From contig NADL03000625.1 in assembly GCA_002205965.3 (NCBI GenBank), forward strand, positions 1 to 64,000: a DNA stretch of 64,000 nt. The letters are read 5' to 3'. The position numbers were made by a program, and so were the translations under genes. Positions 16,840-61,429 of this stretch are shown here, piece after piece (position 1 is the stretch's first letter; the number at the start of each line of letters is the position of its first letter). Source of the DNA: Kappaphycus alvarezii. Its lineage: Eukaryota; Rhodophyta; Florideophyceae; Gigartinales; Solieriaceae. The notes under the pieces were generated by a model. The model saw nothing but the letters and a program-made list of their open reading frames with translations. It did no database searches and had not been told where the DNA came from.

Positions 16840-16880
16840 GAGGTCCGCCGAAAGGAAAAAGCGCTCCGGTTGGACCAAGT

Positions 16881-19030: not shown

Positions 19031-19041
19031 AATGAGGTGAA

Positions 19042-21265: not shown

Positions 21266-24200
21266 ATGGGGAGTTAATTTACTGTGGTAGATATGTGGGT
21301 TGGTACCCAGTAAATTTGTACCGGAGCGTAGATACCGTATATTGGCCAAGCCATTTGCGAAACCGTACAATGCATCGAAAACTGTAGATGGCACTCCAAT
21401 CTACCAGAAGGTGGAAGGGAGGCCAGCCACCTAACAAGCGGCATTGGAGGTTACTGTCAATGCGGAGTGCCGCTGTAAAAGAATGCATCTAATCTTCGAA
21501 AACCGTTCCATTGCGCGAGTGGCAGCAGTTCTCGCGAGTTCCTTGACGACGGAGAACGCCGCCGGATGCCATCCTCCAAGCGTTGAGATGGGAACAGGAA
21601 CCAGCCTGTTTCTCCCAGGCAGTTCAGCAAGGAACCCGTGGTATTTCCGCTGCTTCTCTGCGTGGGCTGCGTTGAGGCTTGTGAGTGGGTTGAAAGCCCT
21701 GGCTCTTGCGTGGGACGGAGCGAGCGGGTTGACAAAGGTTACGTCGAAATAATCCGTGCCACCGACGGCTCCCATCGCCCTGATATCCAGCCTTGTCCTG
21801 TTTTGGAAGTGTAAACGAGTTTCAATGGAAGGAGGTCGGGCGGCTCTTGCGAGATCGTTCCCCAGTAAAGTCACCCGGTTGTTGCGGCGAGTATTCCGCT
21901 CGCAGCCAAAGCGACAATGTAGCAAGTGGTCCCCGTAGATATCCAGCATTTCAGGACACCCTGCTTTTGGGCAAGGGGTACCTGGGGCGAATAAAGGGGT
22001 TTGGCAAAAGTACTGGAACCACACGGAGAAGTCTTTGCTCTTGATGTGCATCCTCAATCCAGGGCAAGGTGCTCAGTAGACCCAGCCTTTGGCTCCGGGG
22101 AGGGACATGCTAGCGCGGAAGGCGCGGGTGTGGATGCTTCCGAGCGGCAAGGCCTCTTGCGCAGCCATATGAATTGCGTCTATTAGCTTCTTCTGCGATG
22201 GTGGGTTGGAGGAGCAGAAATTGCTAAACGGAATTCGTTCTGAGGGTCGACAAGAGGCGCTCCATGTGGCAAAGGCGGCTGTAGCATCCTCGTACTGAGT
22301 CAGGTCTTGAACACAGGACGGCAAAGACTTCTCGAATAACTGCTGCGTCGCGGCGCTAGACGCAAGAAACGAAGCGGCGGCGACGTCTCGCGCAGAGGTG
22401 AGGCCGATTCCCAAGGTCGGCTTCTTCTCCTGTAGTGGCTTCATGGGCAGTTGCAGCTCCTTGAATATAGAGTTGTCTAGCATTCCACTTGCTAAAGTAC
22501 GGCAGCAGTTCTCGATTAAGCTGTCGAAATATTCAGCCCCTTTCCGCGTGCAGGAGGGCGGCACAACTCGCAAGAGGTATCCCACTTTGCAAACCCCAAA
22601 GCAATTACGTAGTAGTTGGAATGAAGCTTGTGCGTCCTCGATTTCCATGACAGCATTAAGTAAAGGCTCAAGGGAGTGTACATGGTCCAAGAAGTATTGT
22701 TCCATGAACGTTTGGGAGCCGACTGGCGCGTTTAAAACCAAAGTCCCAGCACTGTATTCCTGCCGCATATCAGAGGGGTATGCGGACTGAACCGACGCGG
22801 AGGGGGCAGTGGGCCACCATACTTTGCGTTTCGAGACTGCCAGATGGAGGCCACGACGTTTGGCCTCGGCAGAAGTCAGGACCTCGAGTACCTTGAGTAT
22901 TGCCTCGTGTTTGGCTACAATGTAGCCATCGTCGTGATACCAAAACTCCAAAAGCAGTGTGTCAAACCCTTTGTCCTCGTCGGGGAATCCTGACTTTAGC
23001 TCTTTGATCTCCAGGGCGATGGAGTGGAGCACGAGAGCGAAAAGCAACCCGCTAAGCGGGTCTCCTTGTTGGGTGCCCACAACACTCCGTATAATCTCGA
23101 ATCCCGTCCAGAGGAACGTTGGGTCGCTGTTGTAGCAATACAATACCCAAGGAAGCAACTGGGGAAAGAGGTTCCGGACCGCATTGAAAAAGGAAGCACG
23201 GCTGCACAGGTTGAACGCATTCTTCAGATCGACCGACAAGAGCGCATATTCAGAGCGTGTACCAAACTTATTCACGATGCGCCGAACACCGTGAACTACT
23301 GCATCTATTCCTGACCTTGTAGCGATACCGACCTGAAGAGGCTGGAAGTACGTAGCGGCCTTCTCATTAACCCGAGTAGCAAGGCAGCTACTAACTAACC
23401 TTCGAAAAGTCTCTCCCACTGCAATGGGGCGCGGAGTCATGTCCTTCTTCGCAAGTGGTGTGAGTGGGGCTCCAGCAATCCACGGGGCGAGGGCAGTAGG
23501 AGCTTTTCCGGAAGCCAGGACGTTCACCAGTTCTGTTAATGAATCCAAGAATTTCCCCTGCGAGGAAGATGTGGGTGTCCGTAGAAGCTCTTCGACGTGA
23601 GAGGGGCGAAGTCCGGATCCCCCCGGGACTGAACCGGGTTTGAAAGAGCGAACTGCCCGCAAAACCTCATCCTTTGTGATCGCTGAGATGTCGGGGAATG
23701 CGGAAGGCGGTTCAAAGTATTCCTCATCCCCGCAGGCAGATTGAGGATGTTTAGCTCGGAGGGCGTCAGACACAGATTTAGTTGCGGGTAACACCCCTAG
23801 AGATCCTAAAGCCTGTGCAGCTTTCCCATATGCTCCTTCGCGGGCGAGTCTCATAGCACGACGGACATTAGCCTGTTTCTGCTCCCGGGGCATTAAAGTT
23901 CGCTTTGTTCGGGAGGTCGCGTGGTGAAGTGCGTTCTGCCATAAGGTTTGGAACTGTCCAGCATTCCACAGTTCGAGCCGTTCTTTGACTATGTCGCTGG
24001 TCGATTGGACTTGCGTTTCAAGGTTCGAACCGGTAGAACCTGAGGAGGATGAAGTATTCGAAAGCATCACTGAAGGGAAAAGAAAAACTTTAGAGAGCTT
24101 CTCTTCCGCATCATTATGACCGTGTGCACAAGCCCACGCTGCGTCATGCATGGCGACCGACAGGGAGTCACTCAGTGCTGACCGGAATCGTGTAGGGGTA

Positions 24201-24520
24201 TGAGACAACAAAGGAATGTGGTTCGTAAAGATGTCCTCATGGCAGGGCAGGGGTTGCGCTTGGAGCGGAGCGTGCCCTGGTGAGGGTTGCTGATCTGACG
24301 CGCGTCCAGGCGTGTTTGCGGGTCGCGGAAGTTGATCGTCGGCGATCGGGCGTGGGACCGGGACCGAAGACTGGCGGGGTTCATCCGCCTGCAACTGCGA
24401 GTTGTGCAACGGGGCGTACTGCCTTGGCATAATATCTACGGTACACTGAGGGCAGCGGACGTACGAGAACGAGTAAAGTATGGAAAGTGACCCGATAAAT
24501 TACATTACAAATTCCTAGGT
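21266..24520 (-). mobile_element. R2-like non-LTR retrotransposon, nearly complete
   Basis: A single long minus-strand reading frame encodes reverse transcriptase followed by a restriction-like endonuclease. A 3' untranslated segment (about 21270-21430) recurs at 1824-1942 and 50474-50670. No LTRs are present. Five other fragments of the family are found in this window (1.8, 14.0, 31.5, 50.5 and 51.7 kb), so it has been active here repeatedly. The exact 5' end and any target duplication were not found. Confidence 0.85.
21431..24430 (-). pseudogene. Reverse transcriptase / restriction-like endonuclease ORF with one in-frame stop
   Basis: The frame is open from an upstream TAA near 24507. It reads YVRCPQCTVDIMPRQY, so a Cys pair typical of an N-terminal zinc finger lies just before the first ATG (24430). 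Reverse transcriptase motifs are SVDLKNAFNLCSR, VGTQQGDPLSGLLFAL and FWYHDDGYIVAK (catalytic YHDD). A TGA at 22073-22075 follows GAKGWVY, but the same frame continues through APCPGLRMHIKSKDF to 21431. This C-terminal part has the CCHC element (CPKAGCPEMLDIYGDHLLHC), then RLDIRAMGAVGGTDYFDVT, matching the PD...D core of R2-type endonucleases. It would nick the target and prime reverse transcription there. About 1000 residues in total. The single stop is either a disabling mutation or a sequencing error. Confidence 0.88.
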
Positions 24521-27857: not shown

Positions 27858-30800
27858 ATAGAGAATGTTAGTGGTTATTAGGGGGATGAGGAAACATTTC
27901 TGAAGATGAAACATCTAGGTTAAAATGGCTATGAATTAAAAGAATAAAATATTGATATCTGTTGCATTAAAAGAGATAAATTGAGTTATTGCAGAAATTT
28001 TTAGTACTTTTTGAATTGAATGCAAAAAATAATAAAACCAGAGGTCTGGCCTCAAGGCCAAGTAATGTACTTCATTATTTTAATAATTCGTTTAATTGTA
28101 ATGTATCCGTTATTGTTGCTATTGGATAAATCCTAACAAATGGTCATGTTTCTTTTATAGTCGCCAGTTTATCTGATATTGGTCTGTCGTTCACTACTTC
28201 AGGTTCAATGTTTGATAGATATATCTTCAGTTTAGATATATTTAAACGAACAATTATGATCTTCTGATAAACTTATAAAAGCGCAAGAACAAGAATTACA
28301 AGTATCAAAAATATGAAGCTAATATTCTCTGCTGAAATTTCGATTCCATCAAACAAAGAAGAACTCAAAACATTCTCAAAATAATTTCACCAAAACATCT
28401 ATGTATATAAGTTAAGACAAGTTTAAGAATCTCGATGTAGTTTTCTGTGCATAGTTGATTCACGTAAAATAATGGTTACTTAGATTTAAAGTGTGACAAA
28501 CGCAAGAGAATAATTCAAAGCTTTTACAGCAAACAAGCGAAGTAATTAGTGCTTCTGTTATGTTTCACCAGTTGTTTAAAATTTCAATCTCATGAAAACT
28601 TTTTATTTTAATTTCAGGAGGTTTGTCTAGCAAAATTCTTTTTTCCAGAAATTGGAAAGCCAAACACAAAAATAGTTGTTTAAAGTACAAATAAATTTAA
28701 TTGAACTTTATTTTGAAAATATTTGCGAAATAATTTTTTTCAAGTATGACTCTTTTAGACTAAATTATTAAAATATTTTAATGAAAAATCAATTGTTTCG
28801 GATGGAACACAAAATATTCAATCTATACTAACTTTAATTTATATTATATGTAGCCACTAAATCCTTCTAATATATCCATGAATAACGAAACTTTATAAAA
28901 AATATATTTTTTTACCTACTTGTGCAAAGCTCAAGCACTTTTTTCCCTTGAAATAATCTGGTCTGAAAATTCAATCCATCTAATTTTTTTATTTTATACT
29001 AACTAGTAATTTTTCCAATACAAGCCAAACCATGACAACTATTATAGGAATTCTCAATCTCTCATTTGTATCAGTTATTGCTGAAATACTCATTTTTACC
29101 TCCTTAAAAAAGAACATAGTCGCTTTCTGTGGATGTAAACATGAAAAGTTGAAATAAATATTTTTTCGAATCAAAAAACACTGGAAAAACTCTACTTAGA
29201 AGAGGGTGAGAATGTGGAGTGATTTAATATTTGGTTTAAAAAATAAATTGAGCGGAAAAATATTTCTTGTAGCCCAATTGCATTCACAAACTTAAAGTCA
29301 GAGAGAAAAAGGACAATAAAAACCTATTAAAGTCCTTAGTTTAGCATCGTATCGAGAAATTATATTACTGTTACCATTAATTTTTTTGCCAAAATTTACG
29401 CAGGTATCGTCAAGGAATGCTGCAAACTATGACGAACATATTTTTCCAAGCCATTTAAAATACCCAGGAAGGAAATAATTTAATGTTTGATGTTCAAAAA
29501 TGAGAACTTTTGATGAAAACAAATGTATTTTTCAAACTAAACTGAAAGTATACAACCAGTTATAATCACAGGAAAGCAATTGAACCGTGTAATATTCTCA
29601 CAGAGAGATTTAAGACTTACAATTATTATCCCTAAATGATATGAAACTAATTACTTAAAGCCTTGAGCCGGCTTTTTAGGGTAATTTCATAGGTATTACT
29701 GGACACCCTGTAGGATATTCCGGGAACAACCGACCATGCCTTTCAAATATTAAGTCACCTCATATTTTCCCCCTTTATTTAATACTTCCTAGATATACTC
29801 TGTAAATACTCTAGTCCTGCCAGTAAGGAAAAGTTACAAAATTCGCGCATAATTTCTTTCAGCTTTTTTTTCAAACTTGATTTGGAGATAGTATTTATAA
29901 ATTGTTTCAACTACATACGATAATAGCAAACTTTCGAAACAATAAGCTTTTAAATGTATTATTAACATTTAATCGAAAAATTTGTTCCATACCATCGTTT
30001 GTTAGTAAAATTGCAAGAACTAGAGAAAATTATTCCATCTTTTAGAAATATTTTCTTCTTTGAATATTCTGAAAATAACATCAAAAAAATAATAGATGGC
30101 CTTCAATATTCAATGATGCCTTTAATTTTGTACAAAGGTTTGGAGTTTAATTGAATTTATCCCAGGTAAGATCTAAAACACAAAAGAAGGGTACTTAAAC
30201 AACGGAAAATATGCGAAATACCATTTACTCTTATCGGTAGATTTTCCCGTTATCACACACAAAAATACTTTATCAGGAAGAAAAAATCATTCTGTATCCA
30301 TCTATTAAAACATTTAAAATATGTAATGAAAATAAATTGGTAGACATCTTTGCCCGCAATTACTATAAATAAAACGGTACTTAACAAAAAAATGTTTTAA
30401 ACTGATGACCTTCGAAAAAGAAAATACTGAAAACAAATCTAGAAATTAAGTTATAAAAAATGGTAAGGGTAACTTCAACACAATGGTCTTAGTATTATTG
30501 CAAACTTCTGGAAAATTTTTCGAAATTTCCACAATAACGTTTTATACATATATTTCATGCAAATATTTTTTCTATATATATCAATTTCTATTGGTATTTC
30601 ACTAGAACCTATTCTGAATAAATTTTTCCTGTTTGCATAAAGGAAGCAAAAAGACTAAATTTTATGAAAGATGAATTATATTGCCAAATTGTAGGTATAT
30701 TTTGATTCCCAGGGAAAACGTAGTTCTCTTTCTCGAAAATCATACAAATATTAAAGTTAAGATATTAATCAGATAAACTCTGAATCAAATTCTAACAGAA

Positions 30801-31519
30801 GTAATGTAAAAAAATTAATTCTCTCTGTCTATTGCTTCAGTTTACATATAGATATTAATATTTATATATGGGAACCAAACGAGGGCCTAACTTCTTATCA
30901 TTGGAACAATATATACAAAGTGTGAAAGCGCACATTTCAATGTTTTAATTTTTCATTTATATAAAAGGAGGACCCATTGACCTCTAAATTGCATGTGTCG
31001 TCTGATCTTTGCATTTAAAGTAGAACTGCAATACCATCAATCTTTCGTAAAGATACTCGCGAAGTATATACATAATTTTTGTACATGGTATTTCAAAAAG
31101 TTTTAGTCGATATTTTTCCCTCCAAAGTTTCAAACATTTTTTAATAATGGAAATTATTTGATTACCTGTAATATAAATATAAATATGTGCTGTGCGAAGT
31201 TTAAAAATCTTTTTTTAAGCTGGTAAGTTTCAGATGAAATTTAAATTGTTCAAAATTATTTCAAAACTTTGCACTGAGTCGAATGCGCCGGAACCATTTT
31301 GATGCACATAAACTTTTATCACCTAAAATGTAGAAACGAGAGAATATTTTCAACATTGTGGGACATCTTAAAATAAGATCCCTCGCAAAAAAGTTAATGA
31401 TTAAAGTCCAGTTGACTGCTCTCATCTCGGCTTCCCGCTACCTTTTAAGGTTATTTGAAGGTAAATTTGCTTTTATCCTACCTTTCATAGATTTAAACCT
31501 CGTTCGCCTATTATATAAC
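27858..31519. other. AT-rich, no recognisable gene; one R2 repeat inside
   Basis: AT-rich sequence upstream of the LPMO-like gene on the minus strand. Apart from the R2 repeat at 29660-29782, no gene, RNA or mobile element is recognised. A promoter for the LPMO-like gene would lie just above 27857, but no convincing element stands out. Confidence 0.5.
29660..29782 (-). repeat. Short dispersed repeat R2, minus copy
   Basis: From CCTTGAGCCGG through AGGTATTACTGGACACCC, TAGGATATTCCGGGA and TTTCAAATATTAAGTCACC to CATATTTTCCCCC and TTTATT, this is the reverse complement of 13010-13125 with scattered differences. It is a locally GC-richer island in the AT-rich block. Confidence 0.7.
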
Positions 31520-32050
31520 TTCTCCTAAAGTTATACGCGACGTCGGTTAGGACTCCATAAGCGTCCGGATGCCAGCCTCCGAGAGTACTGTAGATATAGG
31601 GATAGGCATGAGCTTACTTCTCACGGAGGTTGCAATAAAATATTCATATCCTCTATGCTTCGCAGAGAAGGCCATATTGAGGAAGTTGAGCGGATTAAAC
31701 GTTTGGGCCTTCCTGTCTGGGGGCGCCAGCGGGTTGACGAAGGTCACGTCAAGGAAATCCGTGCCTCCACTGCTTCCCATAGCCCGGATATCTGGCCTCG
31801 TCCGGTGGACCCCGTCCCGCAGTTCTACGACGGGGTGATGGGCCGCTTTCTGCAGGTCTTGCGCAAAGGTGGCCACTTGATGGTCATGCCCTCGAGTTCT
31901 GTGCCTACCATGTCTGCAGTAAAGGAGTTGATCCCTGAACCAGTCAAGGGTTTTGGGACAGTTTCGTCTCGGGCACGGGACGTCCGAAGGTGACAGGAGG
32001 ACTTAGCAGAAGTGTTGAAACCACACCGGGAAATCACGGGGGTCAATACT
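31520..32050 (-). mobile_element. Relic of the R2-like non-LTR element: endonuclease domain
   Basis: Reading the minus strand gives RDFPVWFQHFC, a stop, then CPRRNCPKTLDWFRDQLLYC (CCHC with the His changed to Gln), HDHQVATFAQDLQKAAHHP and TRPDIRAMGSSGGTDFLDVT with VNPLAPPDRKAQTFNPL, ending near LMES. It aligns along its length with the C-terminal part of the element at 21.4-24.4 kb and keeps the canonical RPDI that the longer copy has as RLDI. The reverse transcriptase part is absent: a 5'-truncated insertion in otherwise AT-rich DNA. Confidence 0.8.
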
Positions 32051-35000
32051 GTTCTAGACAAAAATTAATTGCAATTATTTTGAGAGAAAAATACTTTTTA
32101 TGATCGAGATTAACTGGTTTACACAAAATTATTTCGTATCTTATTTAAATCATTCTGTTAACATATATGCTCAAAAGGTAAGGCTAAGTTTTTTGTAATT
32201 CAGAGCTTTTCCGTTTACTAAAGTTTTCCAGTTTTCATTCGACATTTTTGTTCTACTTTGCATAGACTCAAGGCTGGCTAATACTAAGATTCTTTTTCTA
32301 AGCTTTGTCTTATCTATACAGGAAAGCAAAATTGAAAATATACATTTTTGAAAGATGAAATTGTCATATATTTAAAGTAACCACATTTACGTCTGTTCTT
32401 GATAATTTGTAAATGCTGCCTGGGTACTACTTCCATTATACAGTATTGGAACAATTATCTGTAAGAACTGAATCAATTAAATCTGAAAATATGATTTTCT
32501 CTGAAACTGTAATATGAAATTTTCTGTAATAGTTTGTTTTGGTACCAAAATAATACATTATGAGACCGAATAGAAAACTGATATAGAAAAAACAGTAGAC
32601 TTTTCAGCTTCTTCAAGCCCTATTAGACTTATTTTGTACCTTTAAAAAAAAGTGTAGAAGAGTTTATGGAAATATCGTATTACCTTTTAAAGGTTTTAGA
32701 ATTTTAAAATTTTGTATTTCGAGTAATAAATGAGAGAAAATAAATCTAATCTTTCAAGTACTATACAATGAGAATTTGAGGACAAACCATTATTGATTAT
32801 AACAATCTTAATATATACGTAAAGGGTTTCTCCTTTTTGAAGCTTTAACGTCATTCTGCTTATCTTTACGCCAAAACATATGGAGGAAAACTTAAATTGC
32901 AAGAAAAAGAAAAGTTTAAAGAATAAGTTCTTTTTCTTTGTTCAGAAGTCAGGTAACTAACATATTTCTGCTAGGAGTGGATAGAAAAGCACAAGAATCA
33001 ATTATGATAAAATTCTGTATGTTAACCTCCTTCTCTATATTTTCTCATAAGTGAGGACAGTACCGTGTTCTCTCTCAGGAAATTTTAATAAAAGAACTTG
33101 TTTACCGATTCTCACTTTTTGAAGTTTTCACATCAAGTTAACATTACTTGAGTCCTAAACCTAAAAAATATTGTATGGATTTTTAAAGATTTAATACGAC
33201 TGCAAAATAATTTTGAAAGATGAATCCAAAAAAGAATTCCTACAGGAAATATATAAGTGTTTCCACCATTCAGACTTCCCTTATCGCAAAAGATTTAATC
33301 TTTCTAATTTCGGATTATTTCAAGAGTCTCTACTCTGATCATGTTGATAAAGGGTCATGGGGGCCATCACCAAAAAAATGTCCGTGCACGGCTCCCGACC
33401 ATTCAGAATTGTATTTGAATTATGGAGATTTACTGCGGCGCGGATTTCTCAATGTGTCCGTTGCCTAATGAAATTCATAGGCGTCAAGCAAAGAAACGCT
33501 GACTGTCGGTGCGATTACTTTCAATACATTAGAATGCGCACGGGCGATTTGTGGTACATGCTGTAGTTAAATAGGACTACCTATGAAGGAAAAGACCAAA
33601 TCAAGAGGGTAGAACATCAGTCACACTAACCGAAACAGTAAACCACTGCCGACTCAGTTGAGGGTGTGCAACTGGTGATTACGCAGTCTGAACGTTGTTA
33701 AAAGCAAATAACTCATCTTTTCTCCATTTTATTGGTCTCGAATCACTAAACAACATTGCTGATTTCAGTCTGATATCAGTCCGACATCAGATCAGAATAA
33801 CAGGAATTACCAAGATAACTACTTTTGAGTTCTATACTAATTTTTTTTGAAAGTGGCAATCCAAAAACTGCTTTAATGAATGAAATTTTACTTACATGGT
33901 CTTCAATTTAGTATGTTCACAGGTAAAGCCATTGAAAAAGTGTCAACGCCCGGGGAATGGTTTGGGGGAAAGTTTGATTTCTGAAAAATTTCTGGGAATG
34001 AATGACCACAGTACATATTCCGACTGAAATTTTGAACTAAGACAAAGTTAGTTCCGTTCTGTGAAATATTGGATGAGTTTCAGAATTGGGAAGGATAACG
34101 TACTCAATTAAGGGCTCCTTGGAAACTATTTTAAAATACTAATACGCCAATTTCCTTATTTGGAGGACTATTTCTCTATATTTTGCTTCTTAAGATCGTT
34201 TTTTTGCAACTTTATATAATTTTATTCATGTTAATGTATGAAAGTACTGACATATTACTATCATTAAATAATTTTCATTCGGTTTTGCAACAGAGTTTGT
34301 GTCTAGTAATCCTTTCAATTTGCGGGAAAATCCTGAAAATGAGTAATTACACTTGTATTGTTGCTCTGTGTTTCGGACAAATTGACCTTAAACATTTTCG
34401 TACTATACATAGAATAAAACAATTAATGAAAACTTGAGCACTAAAACTTTCGAATATATGAACAGATGCTTTTTACTTCTTTTTATAGCACTTATTTCTG
34501 TAGCACATTGCAAATATTTTAGTTTCTTCGTTAGAACGAACAGCTGCGTCTTCTTTGGGTTCTTATTTACCCAAAAGATTGCAAAAGGTTCGAGAAGAAT
34601 ACAAATCTGCATTTTCATCATCTTACTCATGGCCAACTACACGTATATCATGGTAGAATTGGATTATTCTGGAATATCAATTGGATTGTTTCTAAACCAC
34701 TTCTTTAGAAACTATCAAAACGAATACATGGATACCAATACAATAGAATTAAGTGATTGATTAATTTCAAGGACTCTAAAATGAAGCCCTATACAGTTTC
34801 TGAGCAGCAGTTACTGCAAAATGTATGTGTTTCCCAGATACACTACGTAAGACTCCCTTTCATCCAATTTATGTCACTTAAGTCATCTTAGAAGATCTCA
34901 GAGCATCTTAGGCCCCCTTTTATGCAGCGACAAGTTTATTCAGTGTTTAGAATCGTTTCCGGTACCTTTATTTCCAATAATTAAAAAAACGAATTTATTG

Positions 35001-38000
35001 ATGATCATATTTACTGCTTAAATGGAAGTTCTGAGGCAAACTTCTTCTGTACGATCAACAGAAATATTTTAGAAAAATTTTAGTATCTAACATCTTTGGA
35101 TAAATAAATAAAAAGATTTAAGAGAAAAACTATCGATAAGTTGAAAAAAAGGATGTTGAATTGATTATGAAAAAGCAAATATCAGGAGCAATAAATATAA
35201 CTATACATCACGAAGTGATATATATACTCGGTGATTGCAAGTTTCATTTTTGATTTTTGCGAAACAATGTAAACTTTTCGTGAAAAATATTGAGCTTTAC
35301 GTTCTCTACCAGGTGAAATCAGGATAAGTTGAGTTCGAGGGGCAATTTGATGATACGATTGCGTAAATTTTTGTCAGATTGGATGCTTAAAGAAGTCAAA
35401 ATTAGGAACTTAATTATTTTTATGAATTCTGCTAGTGAAAATTGGAATAAATGGAGCGACATATCATCAATATTAAAACTGAGAAATTATGATTCAGAGC
35501 TAATTTAAAGTTCCACATTTAGAATATCTGACTGAAAAAAATTCCTTTACTAGTATTAACGCTGGACCTTTATCAAATAGCCCAGCATTCTCAAATATCA
35601 GCCCGTTCTAAATCTGCTTGGATACAAGCGAATTTATATTGGTAAATAGTATTATGATTTACGAAATTCTTCTATAATTCTCGCTTCTGGCAAGTCAAGT
35701 CGTGGTTTAATTGAAGCTTCGAGTGCTGCAATTTTTCTTCAATTACCTTCAAAACTCTCTTCAAGATGTTTCTGTAAATTAAATAACAAAATTTAAATGT
35801 CTCTATATACAGGTTTCAAATATGTTTTCGTTTTTGAAATGTCAACTGTGAAGGAGCCAATCTTCAAAAACAGCAGAACTTCAAATTTTCTAAGTTAAAA
35901 TAGATCTCTTTATTTATATTATTATATATAATTTATTTAAATCGCATGAATATTTTCTAACGAGAAAGTACGTTATTTCCCTCTTTCGTGATATCAGCGA
36001 GTAATACTGTTAAAATTTTATTTGAAACTCAAAAGAATACTCCCATTGAAAATCTGCGAGATTTAATACGATAAAAGAATAGAAAATTCCATATTTTGAA
36101 GAAAGAGCAAACAATATGTCGAAGTATTTTGAGCTCGACATAAGGGAGCCAGAGCTCATTCTGGAACAGGAATAAAGGCAACTATAAAACATTGAAACTT
36201 ACAATCATGGAAGGTAAAGTTATTTTTTGGATTCACCTGTACTCTATTTGTTCAAAGCACCCAGTAAGCTGTCTCTGCATTTTATTGTTCCATGTAGATT
36301 AATCGTTTTGATATCAATACCTCGAATGAGCTGTAATAGTTTCATTTAGACTTCCCATTAGATCTATCGCTTTTGGTTCAAAGCAGCATTAGACTATACG
36401 CACCTTCATCATTCATTTTTCTCATAGTTCTGTTCTATACAATTTTCAGCTGTTTCCTTGAAGAAATAACCAAAATTAATTGACACATTTGCGTACCTGA
36501 CGGTTACCGGTGAAATAATACGACTTATAAGTATCAGTGATGAGTAATGCTGAGGAATAATAAGGTAAGGTAATCACTCAGTAAGATCTGTATGTGCAGA
36601 TAAAGATAGAATAGGAGAGCTGTAGGATGTGAACATTTAATACTTTATAAAATCGTCACTAAAGATATTTTCAGAGTAGTTTATGAAAATGCGCCATTTA
36701 TAAACTCACTTTTATTTTTGTTATAATGACACAAAAGGTCAGAAATGAAATGAAATCAGTACTTTATATTTTCAAATTCTAATTGTATTCATTTGTCAAT
36801 AATTGAATTTCCAAATGTAAAAAATATGAATTATTTGAGATGGCTGAAACAGATTTATCAATCTGTGAATTGATAAGCATTTTTTCTTTCACCTTGTAAT
36901 TTAGAGGCGTACCTTCCGACATGTAAACAAGAAAGCAGCGCTTTACAAAAATAGCGCAATTTCTTGACTTTTTTTACTTCAGAGTCGGATAAAAATCCCA
37001 AAATATTCGACAACAACTTTAACAGATAAAGAATACCTAACTAATGGGCAAAGAAGAAAATTGATACAAGCCCCCATTTTATTCAATTTGTTTTCAATAC
37101 TTGAGCATCACATCGTATGATTTACTGTGGATAAAAAACTATTAGGCATAAATTGATCATTGAGACAAAGTCGAGATCCATGGTAATGTAGCTCTAGAAC
37201 GTTATTATGAAATCTTATAAGCTCAGGATAAAATATCCTCTGCTTGACAGTGTGGTTTACTCTACACGGATAAGAATTTTTTTAGTTACTTTATTCCATC
37301 TTTTAGAGTTCCATCGATGTTTCTTTCTGTATCGAGAGTCCGTAATCCTGTAAATGTGCCAAGGAGAAGATGTTGAGGCCAAAAAGGTAGACTAAAAATT
37401 AATTCTGGTCTCAGCCTCCCCAGAAGAAATGATCATGAGCGGTGCGAGCAGTAAAATACCTGCATGGGAGACTTTCTGATCCAAAAGGATAGGAGGAATC
37501 TTACTTCCCAATAGGTGGAACATTTCGAGGTTGATAATTGTCCTTCTGTGCCAGAAATTACTGCTAATTTATCTTGACCCTTTCGAAGGTAAGGCTCGTT
37601 AGAATAAATTTTTTACATAGTATTGCTTCTGTACACGAAGAGCCGTCCAATTTATCACCTTATTGGAATATTTAAGCCCTAGTAGAGAATCTTCTAATGA
37701 TGACATCAGGGTTGCCTTTTCTTTGCGGTTGACGTAATGGGAAAGCACTGAATTGCTTTTCTTGCGAAAAAACTAATTTTTAGCTCCCTACCTGATCTTA
37801 GTGGCATCATTAAGTTCATATCTAAAGCAGCTTCAAACTAGGAAATTAATCCGACCCTTCCCTGAAATCCTTGAATGCGGCGTAGATATCAAATTTTATT
37901 GAGAAAGTAGAATCTAAAATTTGTTTCCCAACCATCAATGACTATATTTGAAATCGTGGATATTTTCCGACAAACATTCTGGTACCGTAGCTTGAAATTA

Positions 38001-40924
38001 CTGTGTGTAACTCTTCCGGTCAGATTCATCGCTCATCATTGCGCTTTTAAGATGAAGTCAAGGACGAGAAACGTTTATTCGAGAGGATGCCGAGTAAATG
38101 CGGGAACGTCATCGGTTAATCACGAAAAATGAAAAACACTTTTACGATGTTAGTATTTTTATAGTTTTTCCATCCAGACGTAATCTATCAATTGTATTTT
38201 CTCTTTCAAATAATTTTCTAATGATACCTAAAGCAATGTGAGTTTAATTCTTTTGACTTTTTGGGATTTATAATCGCAGTAAAGTAGTAATGCTGTACAC
38301 TATCTGTCGTGAAATCTAGTTCATGTGCTGCGAAGCAATGTAAAACTTTCTGCATTACATAAAGCAAGTTTTTAACAAGGTTTTTGATAATTCATCTATG
38401 TTGAACGTGATGTTAAAGATAACTGTTACTTTCCAACCAAAGGAGGGCTCGATTTAAATTGAGGAACATCGTCAGATTACATCTGAATGTGTATCGGCAA
38501 AGATATTACCAGCTATTCGCTTCTGACGAAAATCTACCTCTCAGGGAGAACTTGGACTTGCACTGTTTTAGTTTTCTCATATAAAGTTAGAAGTTTTCTA
38601 TAATGAAGAAAACTTTTGTGACATATATGAGTCATGGAGGGATGCTAAAAATTATTTATCTCAATATTTCGAAGTTGTACTCGGAAATTTAATTGAACCC
38701 TTTAGTTTGCATTTTACTATATCTGTTGATGAAACTGCTCATTTATTTCTCCGAACCTGAGTTTTCTTCGGTGTGAAACCTGGAAAACTTGAGCTGTCTC
38801 CGTAACGGGTCCGTATTTTTCTTTCACGTGTTTTGCGTGAAACATAGATCGCAATTGCTCAAGATGAATATAAGAATTCTATTTTGCTCTTACTATGTGC
38901 AGCGAAAATTTTCCCCGGCAGATTCTTTTTCTTTGTAGTAAAAACTTTAGAAAGAGGCAAAGCCAAAAATCTTCCGCGAACATTTCGAAACTCTTTATTT
39001 ACCGCCTTATCAGCACAAAAAATTAGCCCGGAGAAAAATGATTTATGATTCCAAAAAACCTAAAACTATCATATCAATTTCCTTTTTCATTCTCGACACG
39101 TCGTTCTTCAGATATATGAATTCTATCCTTGTCTATATTAGCCGTAAACGACTTTTGAATATGATTTCTTCGTTGAAACTTTGTCCTAAACTGAGGTTCA
39201 TATATTTCAATTTATATTTAATTGAAAAGTCCTACCAACTACATCTTGTGCGCCAAAATAACGAAGTAAGCAAAGACCTAAGAAATATTTTTAACCAGCT
39301 TAGATAGCTTTTAATATTCACTAATCATTTTTCAGTACCAAAAGTTTGTTGAGGACTTTTCGGGACCAGGTGAAGTGTGTCTTCCAGCTATATCCTTCTT
39401 TCTACCATAATATCTATACATTACGTCATAAATTAATCACGCTATGCTCATTTGTTTGCATTCAGTTTTTTCCAAATATTCCTAACGTTTCTTAGCAATG
39501 ACGTCATCATCCAAATATCTGCTATTGGAAGACCCATTGACGTGTGGCAAGTGTTAAAATTATGAACGCTTTCGTTCCAACAATCGATTTCTATTACAGT
39601 GTTACTGGAACAACCGATTACAGTTCCGCTGGTCTCCGCCTTGGAGAAAAGATTCCAGTGCTATATATTCATAAGTTTCACTAACCATTTCTGACCAAGT
39701 AGACGAGATCGCCTTTACTTCTAAGAACGACATATTGCCCATTCCAGAATACATGCATTTTGGTGCTTTTTATACATCATTTGGCGTATTTCCTTGAAAT
39801 GTAAGTTCCCCATTCAGTATGGCGCTGTATCCTTGGGATGAAGAACCCGTTCCAAAACTGAGGCGATGGCAAAAAATCGTTCACACCCAAATTGTTTGTG
39901 TTCATTTTTTTCCTTCCTTTTTTCAACAACTTGCAGAGCCCTTTTGTACTCAACAAAACTGTAAAATTACGTAAGCCGAAAAAAATACCAAAGCTGCAAA
40001 CAGCTACAAATAGAAGGAGACCGCATTTTAGCCAAACATGACACAACGTGCTGACCAAATACAGCTCAAAGCCATTAATCTGTTGCGAATATGCTTCAAG
40101 CACCAAATTAGCCCACTTGGGGAGCGTCTCACTTAATTGTCCGTGAATTACACATCGCAGTCAAAAATGACTGCAAAGTGACTTGGTATCCGTCCAATAA
40201 AAAAAAAGACCATCGCCCGATTTATCTGTGATGTGTTATATCTGTGATTTATTTGATGTAACCGGATCCCTTATACAAGAAATAATGCCAGTCAACAGAG
40301 AAGTGATACAAATTACGTGTAACGGAGAACAGCCGAATTGATCTTCCCAAAGGTACCAACCCCGTAACCAGAAGAGAAAAAAGAATTGATCAAAATATAT
40401 TTCAGGAGAATGGCTTGGTATTGGATACAACCCGAAGTTCTCAATTTACAATTCATCACGAGACTACCAATGTGTGTTACATGTAGACGATTAAAGCCCC
40501 TTAGAATTATCTTCTTGCTCTGTATTTTCTGCAGCTTTCCGAATATTTATTTATTTTATTCTATGTTTATGGACTCACCAGAGTCTGAAATCATGATATA
40601 ATCTGTCACAATATCCCACAATACAAGTGCCTTACCACATTGACACTCATTTGTTGCATATTCACAGATCCTCTGTTTACAGATTCTTTTTTCTTTTTAG
40701 ATTTCACCAGTATCAATTGCGCGTGCTGGGAGATCCTGCTCGTCGATATATCATCATTGTTGAACAAGAATGTCCAAGACCCTGTTAAAAGAGCCCTCGG
40801 TGGGTAATTTCTCGCAATATCCCCTTTTTGCCTGCACATATATCAAAACCTCTTTTTCGAGCCACTATAACAACGGTGCTAGATCCAAAATATTTTCTGT
40901 CGAAGTGCTGGTCGGTAATTTCTT
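32051..40924. other. AT-rich block, no recognisable gene
   Basis: Almost 9 kb of AT-rich sequence with no frame above about 110 codons and no domain. Frames such as 34434-34760 (+), 39777-40106 (-) and 33220-33468 (+) are rich in Phe, Ile, Lys and Leu as expected for random translation of AT-rich DNA. GC content rises locally near 33340-33560 and 37300-37560, which may be decayed insertions, but nothing is identifiable. Confidence 0.5.
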
Positions 40925-54886: not shown

Positions 54887-56218
54887 TTTGGTTTTTGGAT
54901 TGATGTTGAAACGACTTAGAAAGGGATTGCAGGCTAGAAGAGAAAGATTTCTTGTACTTGAGGGATTCAGGGGGGAGCGAAAGACTGATGCGAGTAGTCA
55001 CAGGGCCCACAAGTGCTCGGCAGGAAATTTGTTCCCCATTTAAATTGAACGATGAAGGTTTAAATGATGTTCGAGTTTCCGGGGCTGCGGATAGGTAGTA
55101 GTCGAACAATTGTAGTTGTTTCAAAATATGTTCTGCGACTGAATCAGGGCTTTCGATTTACTTATCATGAACAATGTAGTTTGGAATGCCATGAAAGTTG
55201 CAATTCAAAGAAACCAGAACGCCTTTTATCATTATTATTTAGTTTAGAATTGGATTGTCACGATGGTGACGCCCACAGGTACAGCATTGAAAATTTTCTT
55301 ATCAATACAAATAAACGATCTGATGAAGGAATCCAGGGTGTTGCTTGAGATGGTAGTTGGATTGGCAGGACCGTAGGGTACCGGCATATAAAGAGACCGT
55401 GTATTTGTCGAGCGCAGATAACGAACTACACTGCGCCTGCACTTGTCTGCCAATTACGATACAGTGTGTGGACAAGCTGATCATATCATCCCACAGATCT
55501 CTAGCTTTATGTGTGATATTTCCCTCCTGACTCGAGAAAGTCCCTTGATACTATACGAATTCTAGCCGTATACTGCTCTCCAATGAAGCAACCGCATATT
55601 CTCTTCTGGGCGGAGACTCCGGTTTGAAGTGGCTATGGATCGTCAGCTCTCAAGATTTATTAAAAGCATTGCAAAGGGATTAATTCACCCATTTTCTTCT
55701 TTTTCACTGTTTGCATCATGAATTCGGTTGTGGTGCAGTAAAAATATATTCTGTTCTTGATAAAAAGCCGACGAAAGGACTACGTCAGGGTAGGGGAGGA
55801 TCACGAGGGTTTCATTTACTGCAGCAAATATGCCGGCTGATACCAAGTCAACTTCTCTGAACTTCTCTAGAAACACCATGATTAATTTCATTTTCCACTG
55901 CAGATCCTGAAAAATGGTTGAACGCAAGTTCATTCGACTCTCAACTTTTACACCGCCCAAAGTAAACGAATCCCACTTACCATTTGGGCCTTCTCTCCGT
56001 TATCTCTCGCGCAACCCTAAGTACCATTCATCCTTCACAATGAGAAACCCATTTTACCCCACTTGCCTCCCATTTTTGTTCAAAATTTACCCGGATCTTT
56101 CCAGTTAGACTTTCGCCACTTTTTGCTGATTAGTTTGGCGCCCATCGTACTACCCGCTTTTTCCGTCAGGGAGAAGCCTTTGGCGTTCTGTCATCGGGAA
56201 AGTGAGGCCTTTTGCCAT
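54887..56218. other. No recognisable gene; possible promoter-like element
   Basis: Upstream (5') of the GCC-repeat gene on the minus strand. Frames up to 137 codons (for example 54711-55124 minus) overlap it and lack domains. GGCATATAAAGAGACCGTG near 55382 is a good TATA-like box on the plus strand without an attached gene. Confidence 0.4.
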
Positions 56219-56274
56219 GTGCCTACTCATCTGTATAAATGTGAATCTTCACATTTTTACAGATGAGTAGGCAC
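56219..56274. repeat. Near-perfect hairpin, 27-bp arms with 2-base loop
   Basis: The left arm 56219-56245 starts GTGCCTACTCATCTGTA and ends ATGTGAA. The right arm 56248-56274 is its reverse complement with one mismatch. The loop is TC. The foldback could be the relic of a palindromic insertion or the stem of a small RNA precursor. Nothing else of the family was seen in the window. Confidence 0.85.
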
Positions 56275-56547
56275 ACATATTTACCGGAGCTAGGGAGCGA
56301 ATTATTGTGCTATGACTACTAGACAAACAGGTCCAGTATATGGTAAAGGAGTGCACAACTGTAGAGCATTTTGGCCCGGCAAAAACTTTTTGCAAAGTCT
56401 GGTCCCAAAACGGCAACACCGTAGACGTGGAGCACTTTGTTTTGTCTTAGCCATGTATGAGGTTATGGAAGCAGGAGGGTCCGTGATCAGAAAAGCTGCT
56501 TTGGCATATTTGCTTCGCTTTGTCTCACTTTCTGGACTCTGTACTCA

Positions 56548-56586
56548 TAGGGAAAAAGGTTTAGGTGGTTTACTCTTGGAAGATAT
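56548..56586 (+). repeat. R1 end block interrupted by the piggyBac-like element
   Basis: GGGAAAAAGGTTTAGGTGG, TTTACTCTTGGAAGATAT is the R1 terminal block up to the insertion point. Its continuation ATATCCGGTCT is found at 61321-61331 on the other side of the element. Confidence 0.8.
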
Positions 56587-57028
56587 CCCTAATGCCAGAA
56601 TTTTATGATCGATATATATCTCAGAGTTTTTGACCGTTCACAAGTTCGGTGGAAGTGACCAGATCCCGGATCCAATTAGATGGTTGTCAAGCTGAAGACA
56701 TCAGCTTCCATCGTGCCAAGTTTGACAACTTGTACTCAAAAATTGTGGACACAGTAAAGAGTAGCATACGGGGTCCTGAGGGCGATTGAATATGGCCAAA
56801 AAAATGCACTTGATCTATATATCGATCATTGGCAGTGCCCTTTTTACCGTAACAAAGCGTGCTACAGCTAGCTCTATCTACCACTTCTCCTCCGTTTACG
56901 GCAAGCTCCTTGGACAGCAGATTCCGCGGTCCTCTTCTTCGATGGTAGAGCAGTAGACCCTTGTGAATTTGTTGTTTCAAGAGGTTGTGCAGGCGTTAAT
57001 GTGTTATTACGTACGGACCTGGAACGCG

Positions 57029-60000
57029 TCATAGCGTATCTCTGCTGTGCGCCCTCACGTTGCTGTCTTTGATCCCCGTCGATTTCATCTTTATCCCTTC
57101 TTCTTGTCCCTCCGTATCTGCTTGCCTTCCAACTTCGGCAGATCTCACAGAGCCGTTTTGACCGCCCTGAGTCTCTTCATTTCCACCAGCGGGCTCAGCA
57201 GCATCTCCGGTGATTGCTACCGTGTGACCGCGAGAGTATTCCACATTTCGTGCTTGACTTCGCGAAGCACGACTGCTACTTCCAGTTCTTGAGTTTTCAC
57301 CACTTCTACGGGATGACGAAGCGTTCTCGGGTGTAGCTCTGGTAGCAAGTTCCCTTTGGTTGTGCCAAATACTCCAGCATGTCTTTCTTAGTCCCGCGTG
57401 TACTCTTATACATAAATTGACCCCACATAGGCTACATGAATAAGACGATCTGTGACCTTGACTCGCACCAGATTTTTGACCGCACAGGCCGCAGTAAAGA
57501 GACTTTCCCGATCTCGGCTCATGGCCTTGAACATCTAATCTTAGAAGTTGACCATCTGAGCTGCTAAAGAATGGCAAGCGCTTGTTCTCTCTATTATGAG
57601 CAAGGCGTATCAAGCGTTTGGTATCCTCCCTCGATACGTTCTTGCTATGTGCTTCAACCTCCTGTCCTTCATCCACTGCATTATGCCTACCGCCCAGGGA
57701 ATGTACAAGTGCACCGGCATGGCCAAGTAGCTCTTGTTCAACGTCAACATAAACTCTGATGTAGGCTGGACCTTATTCAACAAGTTCCTGTAGCTATCAA
57801 GGGATCTAAATGTCTCCGGGGACTCCAGTATATCGCGACGCTCATACATTCTCCATCCAATAAATGCATTGACAGCCACTGCTTTGATCGTCTGTGACAC
57901 TATCTTCTGTTCCCACTTCAAATGAGAATTCGGTGACCTCAGTATTGCTCGCTGCTGTGTGGCGCCATCTACCCCTGCCTTTGTCTTGGAGTAGAAGCTC
58001 TGTGCAGCGTGTTTGAACAACTTCAGCGGGGGGAAAGGACCTTTGTCTCCAACATAATCATCCACAATTCTCCAAAACCCAATCCTCGATTCTGCTGTTG
58101 TCTTTTCTTCATCACTTGCACATGAAGGGATTGTACCGTCTCTCTGATGCGCCCAAGTTACTACGGGTGACACAATATTTGTGAGTGTTTCACGGCAAAT
58201 TAATTGTTGTTTGTGGGCATCTGATTAGAACAACATAGACAATTCCTGTCTCAGCTGCACAGACGTACAAAACGAACTGAAACCGGAGGACAATAAGCTG
58301 ATGCAAAAGCTGAGCCATGTGCTCCCTTGGAATGTACTTTCGAAAGGTTTATCCCCGACATCGCAGCGAATCAAATGTGGTGCTGCTAGGTTTGCATAAG
58401 CACCAAGACTTGTTGCAGCCACACGCGTCTTAATCTCAACAGTTGCCATTATGATTTGAGATTGATCATTGCCCAAAATCAGTCCTGGTTCTCCGTCCCA
58501 GTCCGAGAAATGATCTCCTTTCAGTATGGCAATTCCATCCGGCGAGCAAGCGAGATAGCGCTGATCCTTAATAGCAAGCATTCCCACCTCGAACACTTCC
58601 CTGATGAAAGGCTTGGATCTCAGAGCGTTAATGACCGCCTCCTCGTTTATCGAGCCCCTCACTATAGCCTCCGTTGAGACCTTTGAGCTAAACCAACCAT
58701 TGCAGAACAGTTCAAACCATTTATCAGGAGTTCTTCCCCAATATCCGCACGCGTCCCCAGCCCAAGAAACTCTCGCACTTGTTGATTGCTCATCAAAGCA
58801 ATACCGGCATTTGTACCAGTCACCCGGAACTGCCGGAGGATAAACCAATCCGCGCATCGCTGTCCCACTTTGAGGGCTTCGCAGTTCGTCCGAATCACTC
58901 CTTCAGCAAATTGCTTCATTTCCCTAACACCTTCCGGTACACCACGGCCCTGGTGGAACAAAGTCATTTTCAAATTCACGCCGGTCTTTACAACTGCCAC
59001 CCATGTGTTGAGAGAACTCTGAACGCTCGCTGGGACAGAATACATGAACCGTAGCACTTTCGCAAAATGTTCAGTCCCATGTTCTCTGACGGCGACAGCA
59101 GCGATTCTCGTCTGGCCAACTCGACGAACGCCTGAAACGTATTTCGTTGCGAAGTAAGCGGCGGGACCGAGAGATGGACTGTCATCGATAACAAACTCCT
59201 TCCGGCGGTCATACTTCGGGCCTTTCCTTCCTCCTCTACGAGTCGCCACCGCATTTCCTTGCGTCTGTTGAATGGAATTATCTCCTGAAACACCTGCATC
59301 TCTGCTCGTCCCACTTGTTTGGTTTCCACCACCTGCCCCATCACCAACCTCACCACCGCCCCCCGCATCAACTCAATCATCAGCAACATTTGCACTGCCA
59401 TTATCACCACGATCACCTATACCATCACCCCCATCGTCAAGAGCCCCATCACCTTCAAATCATCCTGAGCATCGTTCTGTCCTCCCGTCTGCGAATCGCC
59501 CTGTGCGTTTTGCTGAGCACTTTGCTGGCCACTTCCCTCAGCAGCTTGCGTATGCTGTCCATTCGATGCGGATGCAACATTGTTTGTAGCTTCTCCTTCT
59601 CTGCGCTTGTCACCGCTGTCCTCCTCGTTCACTACATCTGCCCTGCTCGGATTCAAGTACGAGAGTGCGACAAAGGGGTGGACGCGCAACAACTTATCAG
59701 CCATAATGAATACAGACGCAATGCCAAACTCCGAAACCAACCGCAGGAAATTCTCCTTTCCATAACCTCTATCTGCAGTTAAAATGCAACTATTCAATGC
59801 CTCCTCCCCTCGGCCATCCAGGAGCAGAGACAACAGCTTTCGAACAGACTCTATGTGTTGCTCGCCACGTCTTCTAAATCTTAGCGCAAAGATAACTCGA
59901 AACAGCGCGTCGGCAACGGCATCTGCGCTTTGTCCTTCTCTGTCAGCTTTGCGATTATTGACGGACTTGACCTGATTATCTGAGGCTCTGGTTCCAAATA

Positions 60001-61050
60001 TATCGTCATCAAGCGTGGCCAATAATTGAAACGTCGTGAAGAATACTTTTCGCGTTTCGCGAAAAGCCAGGCTTTCAAACTCTGTTAGCTGACGGGTTTG
60101 ATCCCGTTGCGAAATCCATGTGTTACAGCCGTCATCTCCTCTGCCAGTTGGTGAAAAGGCCTTGATATTCTCGGAAATGAATCGAATCATTTCCAGAGAT
60201 GGAGGAATATGACCAAACTGGCGAAGTAGGTCAATCGTCCGCTCGAAGCTGAAGCCCGTTGTATGCGAAAAAAGAAGTACTGCTACGTAGCAATACATGC
60301 CCGGAAGAGTCACAAAGTTTTCTGAACGCTTCTTGTGTCTAATAAACTCGTTCAACCACTGCATTAGTTGCTGCAAGAACCCGTCCATCAGCAATATTAT
60401 TGCACCAGCTCTTGTTGGGGCGATTCCGCGAACGTTACATTGTAACTCAAGGTTGCGGACAGCATTTGTGCAGAAGATTCTAGCACGATCCTCGACCATG
60501 TCACTTGTCAGTTCGGATTCAAGTTCGATGCTCTTGCAACCGTCTGCGTTTATAACCCATCCCTTACTTGGATCATCCTCCTTCTTCTTCGGCCGACCGC
60601 GGGGCCCACTCCTTCCACCCCCCTAGAAGATCCAGTACCAACATTCGTGCCGCCCCCGGAAGCATTTTCACCTGCATTCGGCCCAGCTCTTGAAGTCGTT
60701 CCACCCCGGCCAACCCTTACTGAGCCTCCACCACGGGCACCCCTTGATGTTCCGCCACCCCGGCCACGCCTTGACGATCCACCCCTTCTCCCACCTCTTG
60801 AAGAACCAGCAGCCGCTGAAGATGATCCTCTTCCCTGGGCCTACCTCTGCCCGTTGAAGACCCCCTTGAAGCGCCAGTTCCCCTTGGCCGTCCTGGGCGT
60901 CGCCGAGGCGGTGGCGGGCTGTCAGTAACTCGTGCGCCTGATGCTGGCACTAGAGCCGGTGTTGGTTGAGCATCGGAGGGACTTGGGGGGGGTAGGCTCG
61001 AATTGGCACGGTAACGGGAGGTTTTCGACGTCTTGGTGTGGGGGTGTCAT
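57029..61050 (-). pseudogene. piggyBac-like transposase with an inserted YqaJ/lambda-exonuclease-like domain, frameshifted
   Basis: A probable start ATG (61050, CCCACCATGAC) is followed by a Pro/Arg/Gly-rich N-terminus with AT-hooks (RRRPGRPRG, GRGRPRE, GPRGRPKKK; 60590-60930). The first catalytic block is ATLDDDIFGTR (about 60000-60012) and the second CILTADRGYGKENFL (about 59771). After a Gln/Ala/Gly linker come YDRRKEFVIDDSPSLGPAAY and then a nuclease domain (about 58200-58900). The third block SFYSKTKAGVDGATQQR, with KWEQ and VAVNAFIGW, lies near 57910-57995 and matches the piggyBac GVD motif. The C-terminal finger CGLCGQKSG, CSLCGVNLC and CWSIWH is at 57362-57493, as in piggyBac. At least five single-base shifts and one TGA (near 59373) break it, many in homopolymers. 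Confidence 0.72.
58200..58900 (-). other. YqaJ/lambda-exonuclease-like PD-(D/E)XK nuclease domain within the transposase
   Basis: Minus-strand order: DWFILRQFRVTGTNAGIALM (N-terminal R-x-TGT/S motif of the family), a one-base shift near 58720, DKWFELFCNGWF, RGSINEEAVINAL (the G-x-x-x-E motif), YLACSPDGIAIL (catalytic Asp at about 58537-58539), MATVEIKTRVA (catalytic E-x-K at about 58431-58437), another shift near 58340, then YIPREHMAQLLHQLIVLRFQ and FVLYVCAAETGIVYVVLIRC, the late Gln/His-rich helix and strands. All core catalytic positions survive. The family includes phage lambda exonuclease and YqaJ recombinase nucleases, which resect DNA ends. Its place between transposase Asp 2 and Asp 3 is what makes it unusual. 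Confidence 0.75.
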
Positions 61051-61429
61051 GGTGGGAAGAAGTGATAGGCAGAACAGGGGCTAACTTTGGTTCTGCTCGC
61101 CCAATTTTGAATGTTGAACTTCCAGATTGTTCCAGATGACCCCTTCTTTACAGCTGTAAAGTGTAATTATTGATCTAATCCATTGTATGGACCCCAGAGA
61201 TCCGCTCAGGAGATAGTCTAAACGGCTCTGATGATCGATATATAGATCAATGGGGCCTTTCGGCCAAAACGCCAAAAATTGCAAATGATCGAAATATCGA
61301 TCATGTCCGGCAGTAGGGATATATCCGGTCTCATATGCATGTAATATTTTTTTCAAGAAAATGTAATGCCCGCTTCAGCTGAATGTCGACTGGGTAACTG
61401 CAAGAGCAGTAAAGATTGTCCTTAACACA

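Follow-up and report, generated by a model that had tools for sequence, protein, structure and literature searches.

A piggyBac-like transposase with a nested YqaJ/lambda-exonuclease domain in a decayed transposon of the red alga Kappaphycus alvarezii

Cut-and-paste transposons rely on the host to repair the break that they leave behind, and how such elements gain copies is a long-standing question. A locus in a 64,000-nucleotide stretch of Kappaphycus alvarezii DNA (contig NADL03000625.1, assembly GCA_002205965.3; hereafter the window) raises the question of whether a transposase can itself carry a nuclease of the kind that resects DNA ends. The original prediction placed at 56587-61318 a minus-strand piggyBac-like transposase with a YqaJ/lambda-exonuclease-like nuclease between its second and third catalytic Asp, and allowed that two adjacent genes might look fused because of frameshifts. 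This interval, which runs from tip to tip of a pair of inverted repeats, is a full-length yet decayed copy of a cut-and-paste DNA transposon, and the protein of the element is almost certainly a piggyBac-like DDD transposase with a PD-(D/E)xK nuclease of the YqaJ family lodged between Asp 2 and Asp 3.

The evidence for this architecture comes mainly from relatives. The protein read through the breaks of the window copy found 21 of them, the best at E 9.8e-294 with 54% identity over 76% of the query. Three protein searches (21, 44 and 14 proteins, with overlap) yielded the set P0001-P0059, or 58 complete or partial relatives after exclusion of P0046, a Cyclotella N-terminal fragment without the nuclease part. 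Species represented are the red algae Gracilariopsis chorda and Chondrus crispus and the diatoms Nitzschia inconspicua, Skeletonema dohrnii and Cyclotella; most other relatives sit on contigs of a few thousand bases and are probably metagenomic. Many of these contig-derived proteins, of about 1000-1300 residues, bear every motif in one predicted protein, and all three blocks (at least 70% each of the N-terminal, YqaJ and C-terminal blocks) are found together in 35 of the 58. Chance occurrence of the motifs was rejected, since the E-values of the relatives reach down to 1e-293. The database names of the relatives mention PiggyBac or YqaJ, never both among the names listed. Two scans of viral_contigs and one of genome_contigs, with few peptide patterns and thus no demonstration of absence, found no relatives.

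On the minus strand of the window, the order of motifs is LDDDIF, TADRGYG, an acidic linker, a conserved block, the YqaJ-like domain, KAGVDGATQQR and a Cys/His finger, so that the blocks named in the original prediction are all in place and in piggyBac order. The first catalytic Asp is in LDDDIF (60010-60002), the second in TADRGYG (codon 59773-59771) and the third in GVDG (codon 57969-57967), the last being equivalent to D447 of Trichoplusia ni (T. ni) piggyBac, the active site of which consists of D268, D346 and D447 (PMC7351741). The best match of the family profile in the PDB is T. ni piggyBac 6x67, aligned across the GVD Asp; in the C-terminal half of the catalytic domain, the relatives' profile aligns with its residues 438-503. 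The finger region accounts for the remaining 13 PDB matches, all to ribosomal proteins. Between profile A3 and one ordinary piggyBac of the genome, the GVD stretch alone aligned (probability 0.6%, E 0.088). The piggyBac profile DDE_Tnp_1_7 (PF13843) exceeds its curated cut-off in P0029, P0046, P0048, P0049, P0053 and P0059, lies below it in P0045 and P0047, and has no match in the window copy. Regarding the finger, its six Cys are kept in 39-41 of the 41 alignment rows with a residue there, and its Cys/His spacing is conserved, with weak profile matches (in the window copy, C1_2 at E 1.1e-4 and zf-Tnp_2 at E 0.064); it is a candidate for the cross-brace cysteine-rich DNA-binding domain of piggyBac.

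The nesting of the nuclease is seen in the way in which PF13843 is split. Profile positions up to 228-258 precede the YqaJ domain in P0048, P0049, P0053 and P0059, and positions 298-349 come after it in P0029 (residues 976-1026, E 8.2e-7). Across 39 rows, 438-605 residues (median 502) separate the second Asp from the third; in one ordinary piggyBac from this genome the spacing is 131. In T. ni piggyBac, the RNase H-like fold is broken after its fifth strand by an insertion domain spanning residues 372-433 (PMC7351741); we infer that the YqaJ domain occupies the exact place of this insertion domain, and the conserved block ahead of it is possibly the counterpart of the insertion-domain strands.

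The nested region itself shows the motifs F-R-V-T-G-T-N, G-S-I-N-E, C-S-P-D-G, V-E-I-K-T and Q-L-L-H-Q. The joined YqaJ stretch of the window copy scores E 0.001 against PF09588 (19.8 bits, under the curated 22), and several relatives exceed the Pfam cut-off, the best being P0053 (E 6.5e-10), followed by P0033 (1.1e-7) and P0019 (2e-7); among the 45 members of alignment A2, 24 match at E 0.01 or lower. Moreover, the four members tried all match PHROG 434 (RecE-like exonuclease), and the P0053 domain matched one solved chain set, that of the exonuclease 3syy (E 1.7e-5), which we take to be the lambda-Exo-like LHK-Exo. The original prediction had named the lack of any YqaJ/lambda-exo or piggyBac profile match as the result that would count against it; profiles of both kinds match the relatives.

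The two parts of the protein also share a history. Transposase and nuclease distances correlate across 36 rows, i.e. the 35 relatives with all blocks and the window read-through (Mantel r 0.85 and 0.82, values reached in 0 of 999 permutations), and the two trees have 17 of 33 splits in common, where 200 shuffles gave 2 at most. The trees do not conflict among splits with support of 0.9 or more, and the clade holding the Skeletonema protein is set apart in both. One insertion in the common ancestor of the known members would be the simplest reading. Further, conservation was followed over the 58 relatives plus the read-through of the window copy, 59 rows in all, counting those with a residue at the column: the transposase Asp are kept in 54 of 54, 55 of 56 and 45 of 45 rows, and the nuclease Glu, Asp, Glu and Lys in 48 of 48, 48 of 49, 47 of 48 and 46 of 48, so that the metal-binding residues of PD-(D/E)xK enzymes are present across the alignment. 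Mean pairwise identity of the three blocks is 36-41%, with minima of 13-21%. Judging from these residues, the nuclease is probably active in intact members. A remnant that still folds but lacks activity, and is retained for structural reasons, would agree with the stops and broken frames of many genome copies and with the lost nuclease Asp motif of one of them (L023), but it is very improbable given that the metal-binding and E-x-K residues persist in 46-48 of 48-49 rows despite the low mean identity of the blocks.

Some members carry additional C-terminal regions. The distant fusions P0045 and P0047 (1375 and 1383 residues) have an extra C-terminal stretch, which in P0045 weakly matches Peptidase_C65/otubain (E 0.0092, below cut-off), and some members may hold an OTU-type protease as well. 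P0027 and P0028 carry a SCAND3-like zinc finger (PF23663) at the C terminus; neither match (E 4.7e-6 and 0.006, respectively) reaches the cut-off.

The Kappaphycus genome (336 Mb, 884 contigs) was scanned for further copies and gave at least 153 matches for the nuclease part, with 150 of the 697 candidates scored, and at least 114 for the N-terminal part of the transposase, with 113 of 1402 scored. Among the matches listed, 65 of 112 transposase matches are followed on the same strand by a nuclease match, at a median of 623 bp, and no nuclease match lies within 4 kb in the other order or strand. When 2.5 kb downstream of the first eight of the other 47 transposase loci were read, seven had a nuclease match, two of them as a short piece. 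These counts bear on the reading of the fusion as an artefact, in which two adjacent genes or a misassembly are taken for one: the window copy does have a broken frame both before and after the YqaJ part, but both parts stand in one predicted protein in many relatives, and the order from transposase to nuclease is kept in the genome pairs and in seven of the eight sampled loci. The chance of such an artefact is negligible, and the idea of two genes joined by frameshift, which the original prediction had kept in reserve, was rejected on account of the fused relatives and the kept order; the same domain order, which it had proposed to look for, recurs in the listed genome pairs and in relatives including the diatom protein P0051. 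By comparison, PF13843 has at least 119 genome matches over cut-off (116 of 951 candidates scored), many of which cover the whole profile within about 1.15 kb and therefore have no such insert.

The family of the window copy comprises 13 near-identical full-length copies, the window included, which are 95.5-98.9% alike in the pairs listed; the window copy is 96.3-98.6% identical to the other 12. L014 and L020 are part of one duplicated segment. L017 is an internally deleted copy, possibly a non-autonomous derivative, and its deletion junction has no clear microhomology. The gene of the window copy, on the minus strand at 60622-57032, has its pieces spread over three frames, and comparison with the majority of the 12 sister copies, the check proposed at the outset, places six frame-shifting deletions within 57030-60640.

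Both ends of the element are closed by 13-bp inverted repeats, CCCTANTGCCRGA, with ATAT immediately outside each (Table 1). An 18-bp palindromic motif, TGATCKATATATMGATCA, searched over the whole window with up to three mismatches, has four matches, two by each element end and none elsewhere, where 0.07 were expected. The CCCTA tips and sub-terminal palindromes make the ends piggyBac-like, and the repeats have the length and tips (12-19 bp, CC[C/T]T) described for the piggyBac superfamily (PMC2872659). In the first 60 bp of each end, the CCCTA tip and a TGAT-type near-palindrome are kept in distant families.

Table 1. Features of the transposon copy, in window coordinates.
Feature	Positions	Strand	Basis
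Target-site duplication ATAT, left	56583..56586		ATAT flanks at 16/21 loci; empty sites of copies L013 and L015
Left terminal inverted repeat CCCTAATGCCAGA	56587..56599	+	Inverted-repeat and loci comparison
Sub-terminal palindromic repeat, imperfect copy (2 mismatches)	56606..56623		Motif scan of window
Sub-terminal palindromic repeat	56811..56828		Motif scan of window
C-terminal Cys/His finger, CxxC...CxxC....C...CW...WH	57362..57505	-	Pattern; conservation in alignment
C-terminal half of DDD catalytic domain and following helices	57612..58198	-	Alignment; relatives' profile vs piggyBac 6x67
Nested YqaJ/lambda-exonuclease domain, with frame breaks in window copy	58199..58889	-	PF09588, PHROG 434, PDB 3syy
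Conserved block between linker and YqaJ	58983..59204	-	Alignment A1
Acidic/low-complexity linker, variable among relatives; frame change and TGA in window copy	59205..59632	-	Alignment
Transposase N-terminal half: basic AT-hook-like start, helices, first and second Asp	59633..60622	-	Alignment; PF01609 E 0.0059
Sub-terminal palindromic repeat	61232..61249		Motif scan of window
Sub-terminal palindromic repeat (1 mismatch)	61286..61303		Motif scan of window
Right terminal inverted repeat CCCTACTGCCGGA (minus-strand reading)	61306..61318	-	Inverted-repeat and loci comparison
Target-site duplication ATAT, right	61319..61322		Flanks of examined loci

The target site was established from the flanks of 21 loci (20 fetched and the window). 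ATAT stands beside both tips at 16 of them, including four distant-family copies: L022, L023, L026 (near-identical ends) and L027. In L014 one base of the right tip is lost, the left flank of L017 reads ATAG, no tip pair was found in L024 and L028, and L025 shows a single, apparently spurious pattern pair without ATAT. Across the joined flanks of copy L013, 11 places are listed, eight of them readable. In the best rows, seven of these eight empty sites are gap-free around the junction (L030 has two single-base gaps), none differs by 4 bp there, and five (L029, L031, L032, L034 and L036) carry exact ATAT; the weaker second rows have occasional single-base gaps, and two stop short of the junction. 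Copy L015 has two unoccupied relatives, each with one ATAT and gap-free across the junction. Since the empty sites of these two sister copies carry a single ATAT, insertion duplicates these 4 bp, a target that the original prediction did not mention. Inverted repeats that include ATAT without duplication were rejected because the empty sites are not 4 bp shorter, and a TTAA target by the flanks at the 16 loci together with the empty sites of both copies. As regards the window copy, the search for its full empty site matched only the window itself; a flank of L019 resembles its flank over some 50 bases, which is compatible with an empty site.

The TTAA duplication that defines piggyBac is thus missing, which speaks against canonical membership, and for this reason the element is filed as a piggyBac-related lineage; the predicted piggyBac-like character of the transposase holds through the PF13843 matches on both sides of the YqaJ domain in relatives, without the TTAA hallmark. 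An ordinary piggyBac-like pair of the genome, L047/L048 (99% alike, 653-residue frames), has ends reading TATCCCC...GGGGAT, with no TTAA, so that non-TTAA targets may be wider among its piggyBacs.

With T. ni piggyBac (PDB 6x67/6x68; PF13843) the element shares the order of the DDD residues, the GVD setting of the third Asp, short inverted repeats that begin CCCT, sub-terminal palindromic repeats, a C-terminal Cys-rich finger, and a 4-bp palindromic AT target duplicated upon insertion. It differs in about 370 extra residues, with the nuclease, between Asp 2 and Asp 3, in an acidic linker ahead of the nuclease, and in the choice of ATAT rather than TTAA. ISL2EU elements of the PHIS superfamily are likewise DNA transposons with a YqaJ exonuclease, which in the accounts of PMC4482050 and PMC9179366 is a separate second ORF, whereas here it lies inside the transposase protein; their transposase belongs to the PIF/Harbinger type, with HTH/THAP, and they have an AT duplication and GG tips, in contrast to the CCC tips and ATAT of the present element. 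Membership of ISL2EU was rejected, the relatives having one protein in place of two ORFs, together with ATAT and CCC tips. The role of extra ORFs such as YqaJ in ISL2EU transposons is described as unknown in PMC4482050. As for the lambda exonuclease/YqaJ/RecE-type alkaline exonucleases (PF09588, PHROG 434, PDB 3syy), the likeness consists of matching profiles and a shared succession of motifs, T-G ... G-x-x-x-E ... SPDG ... E-x-K ... Q-x-x-x-Q; there the enzyme is a free protein, often beside an annealing protein, and here it is nested in a transposase. Finally, a DEDDh nuclease in piggyBac-type transposons is mentioned in PMC3627910; it would likewise be a transposon-carried nuclease, of another fold, and the mention does not state whether it is fused or separate. 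Neither a YqaJ domain inside a transposase nor a piggyBac with an ATAT target appeared in the titles and abstract openings of the open-licence papers listed.

Drawing on the known families, the DDD site would excise the element and join it to ATAT in the way that piggyBac uses TTAA, and binding of the sub-terminal palindromes would fall to the C-terminal finger. In T. ni, excision proceeds via TTAA hairpins with integration at TTAA, and the cysteine-rich domain binds a palindromic internal repeat (PMC7351741). The nested nuclease, tethered to the transpososome, may then resect the 5' strands at the donor break. Such resection would shift repair from seamless end-joining to copying from the sister or homologue, and this templated repair would restore the donor copy, so that copy number rises. 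Resection of donor ends is proposed because of the family of the nuclease and its conserved residues; SXT-Exo, of the same family, degrades double-stranded DNA processively from ends (PMC3118119). As the main role of the nuclease, donor-break resection is put forward tentatively, at somewhat under an even chance.

Two other uses of an active domain have to be weighed. The chief alternative, itself rather unlikely, is that the domain serves the transposition reaction and has no role in donor-site repair: it might replace or extend the insertion domain, contact target and flanking DNA and so help to set ATAT, or trim or open end intermediates. The insertion domain inside the RNase H fold of piggyBac lines its target channel and makes contact with TTAA (PMC7351741); here the nuclease falls in the matching interval of PF13843, with ATAT as the target. 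The near-invariant nuclease residues, on the other hand, suggest catalysis rather than a scaffold, and ATAT may be unrelated to the nuclease. The second is that the domain degrades other DNA, such as competing elements or viral and extrachromosomal molecules, as cargo fused for co-inheritance. This is improbable: lambda-Exo/YqaJ genes are indeed common in prokaryotes and their mobile elements (PMC3118119), but insertion inside the catalytic fold, and not at an end, suggests a coupling to transposition.

For donor-break resection by a nested nuclease, and for the architecture on which it depends, several observations have to be counted on the other side. The window copy is broken, with five frame changes and one TGA inside the transposase. 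The match of the family profile to piggyBac 6x67 is weak (E 0.002), and PF13843 reaches E 0.01 or lower in just 3 of the 45 members of A2. Among species-assigned relatives only the Skeletonema protein P0051 has all parts, those of Gracilariopsis, Chondrus and Nitzschia being partial gene models, and P0016 lacks one stretch of the nuclease. In the genome, one of the eight sampled loci (L039) has no nuclease in the 2.5 kb downstream, and L023, from outside the window family and the sole long frame translated whole, is a single 958-residue frame that has lost two catalytic residues (TAE instead of TAD, SLN instead of SPD). A selection test that set shared against single variants across the sister copies gave Fisher p values of 0.185-1 for the individual regions and was uninformative. 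Lastly, lambda-Exo is a trimer (PMC3118119) and the piggyBac complex a dimer (PMC7351741). Taken as a whole, the explanation of a decayed transposon with a nested nuclease that is active and resects the donor break has an even chance of being right. That one polypeptide both excises and resects, with the donor refilled by homologous recombination, a net gain of copies and a target switched from TTAA to ATAT, is rather unlikely.

The surroundings of the element hold further features. A 28-bp inverted repeat with a 2-base loop is found at 56218-56275, some 300 bases beyond the left end. Judged from sequence, open frames at 5244-9697 and 16099-19941 (plus strand) resemble gypsy-type LTR retrotransposons, and long frames at 21431-24430 (minus strand) resemble non-LTR reverse transcriptases. 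The stretch 28000-40000 is AT-rich (GC 0.29-0.35), between regions of about 0.40-0.45.

A resection-type nuclease built into a transposase makes the link between break and repair directly testable by mutating single active sites. Moreover, a naturally occurring relative of piggyBac with a different strict target, ATAT, is useful for finding what sets TTAA specificity, and the nested nuclease might shed light on the presence of a separate YqaJ gene in ISL2EU transposons. If the proposal is true, a single protein may not only move the element but also direct the repair of the broken DNA.

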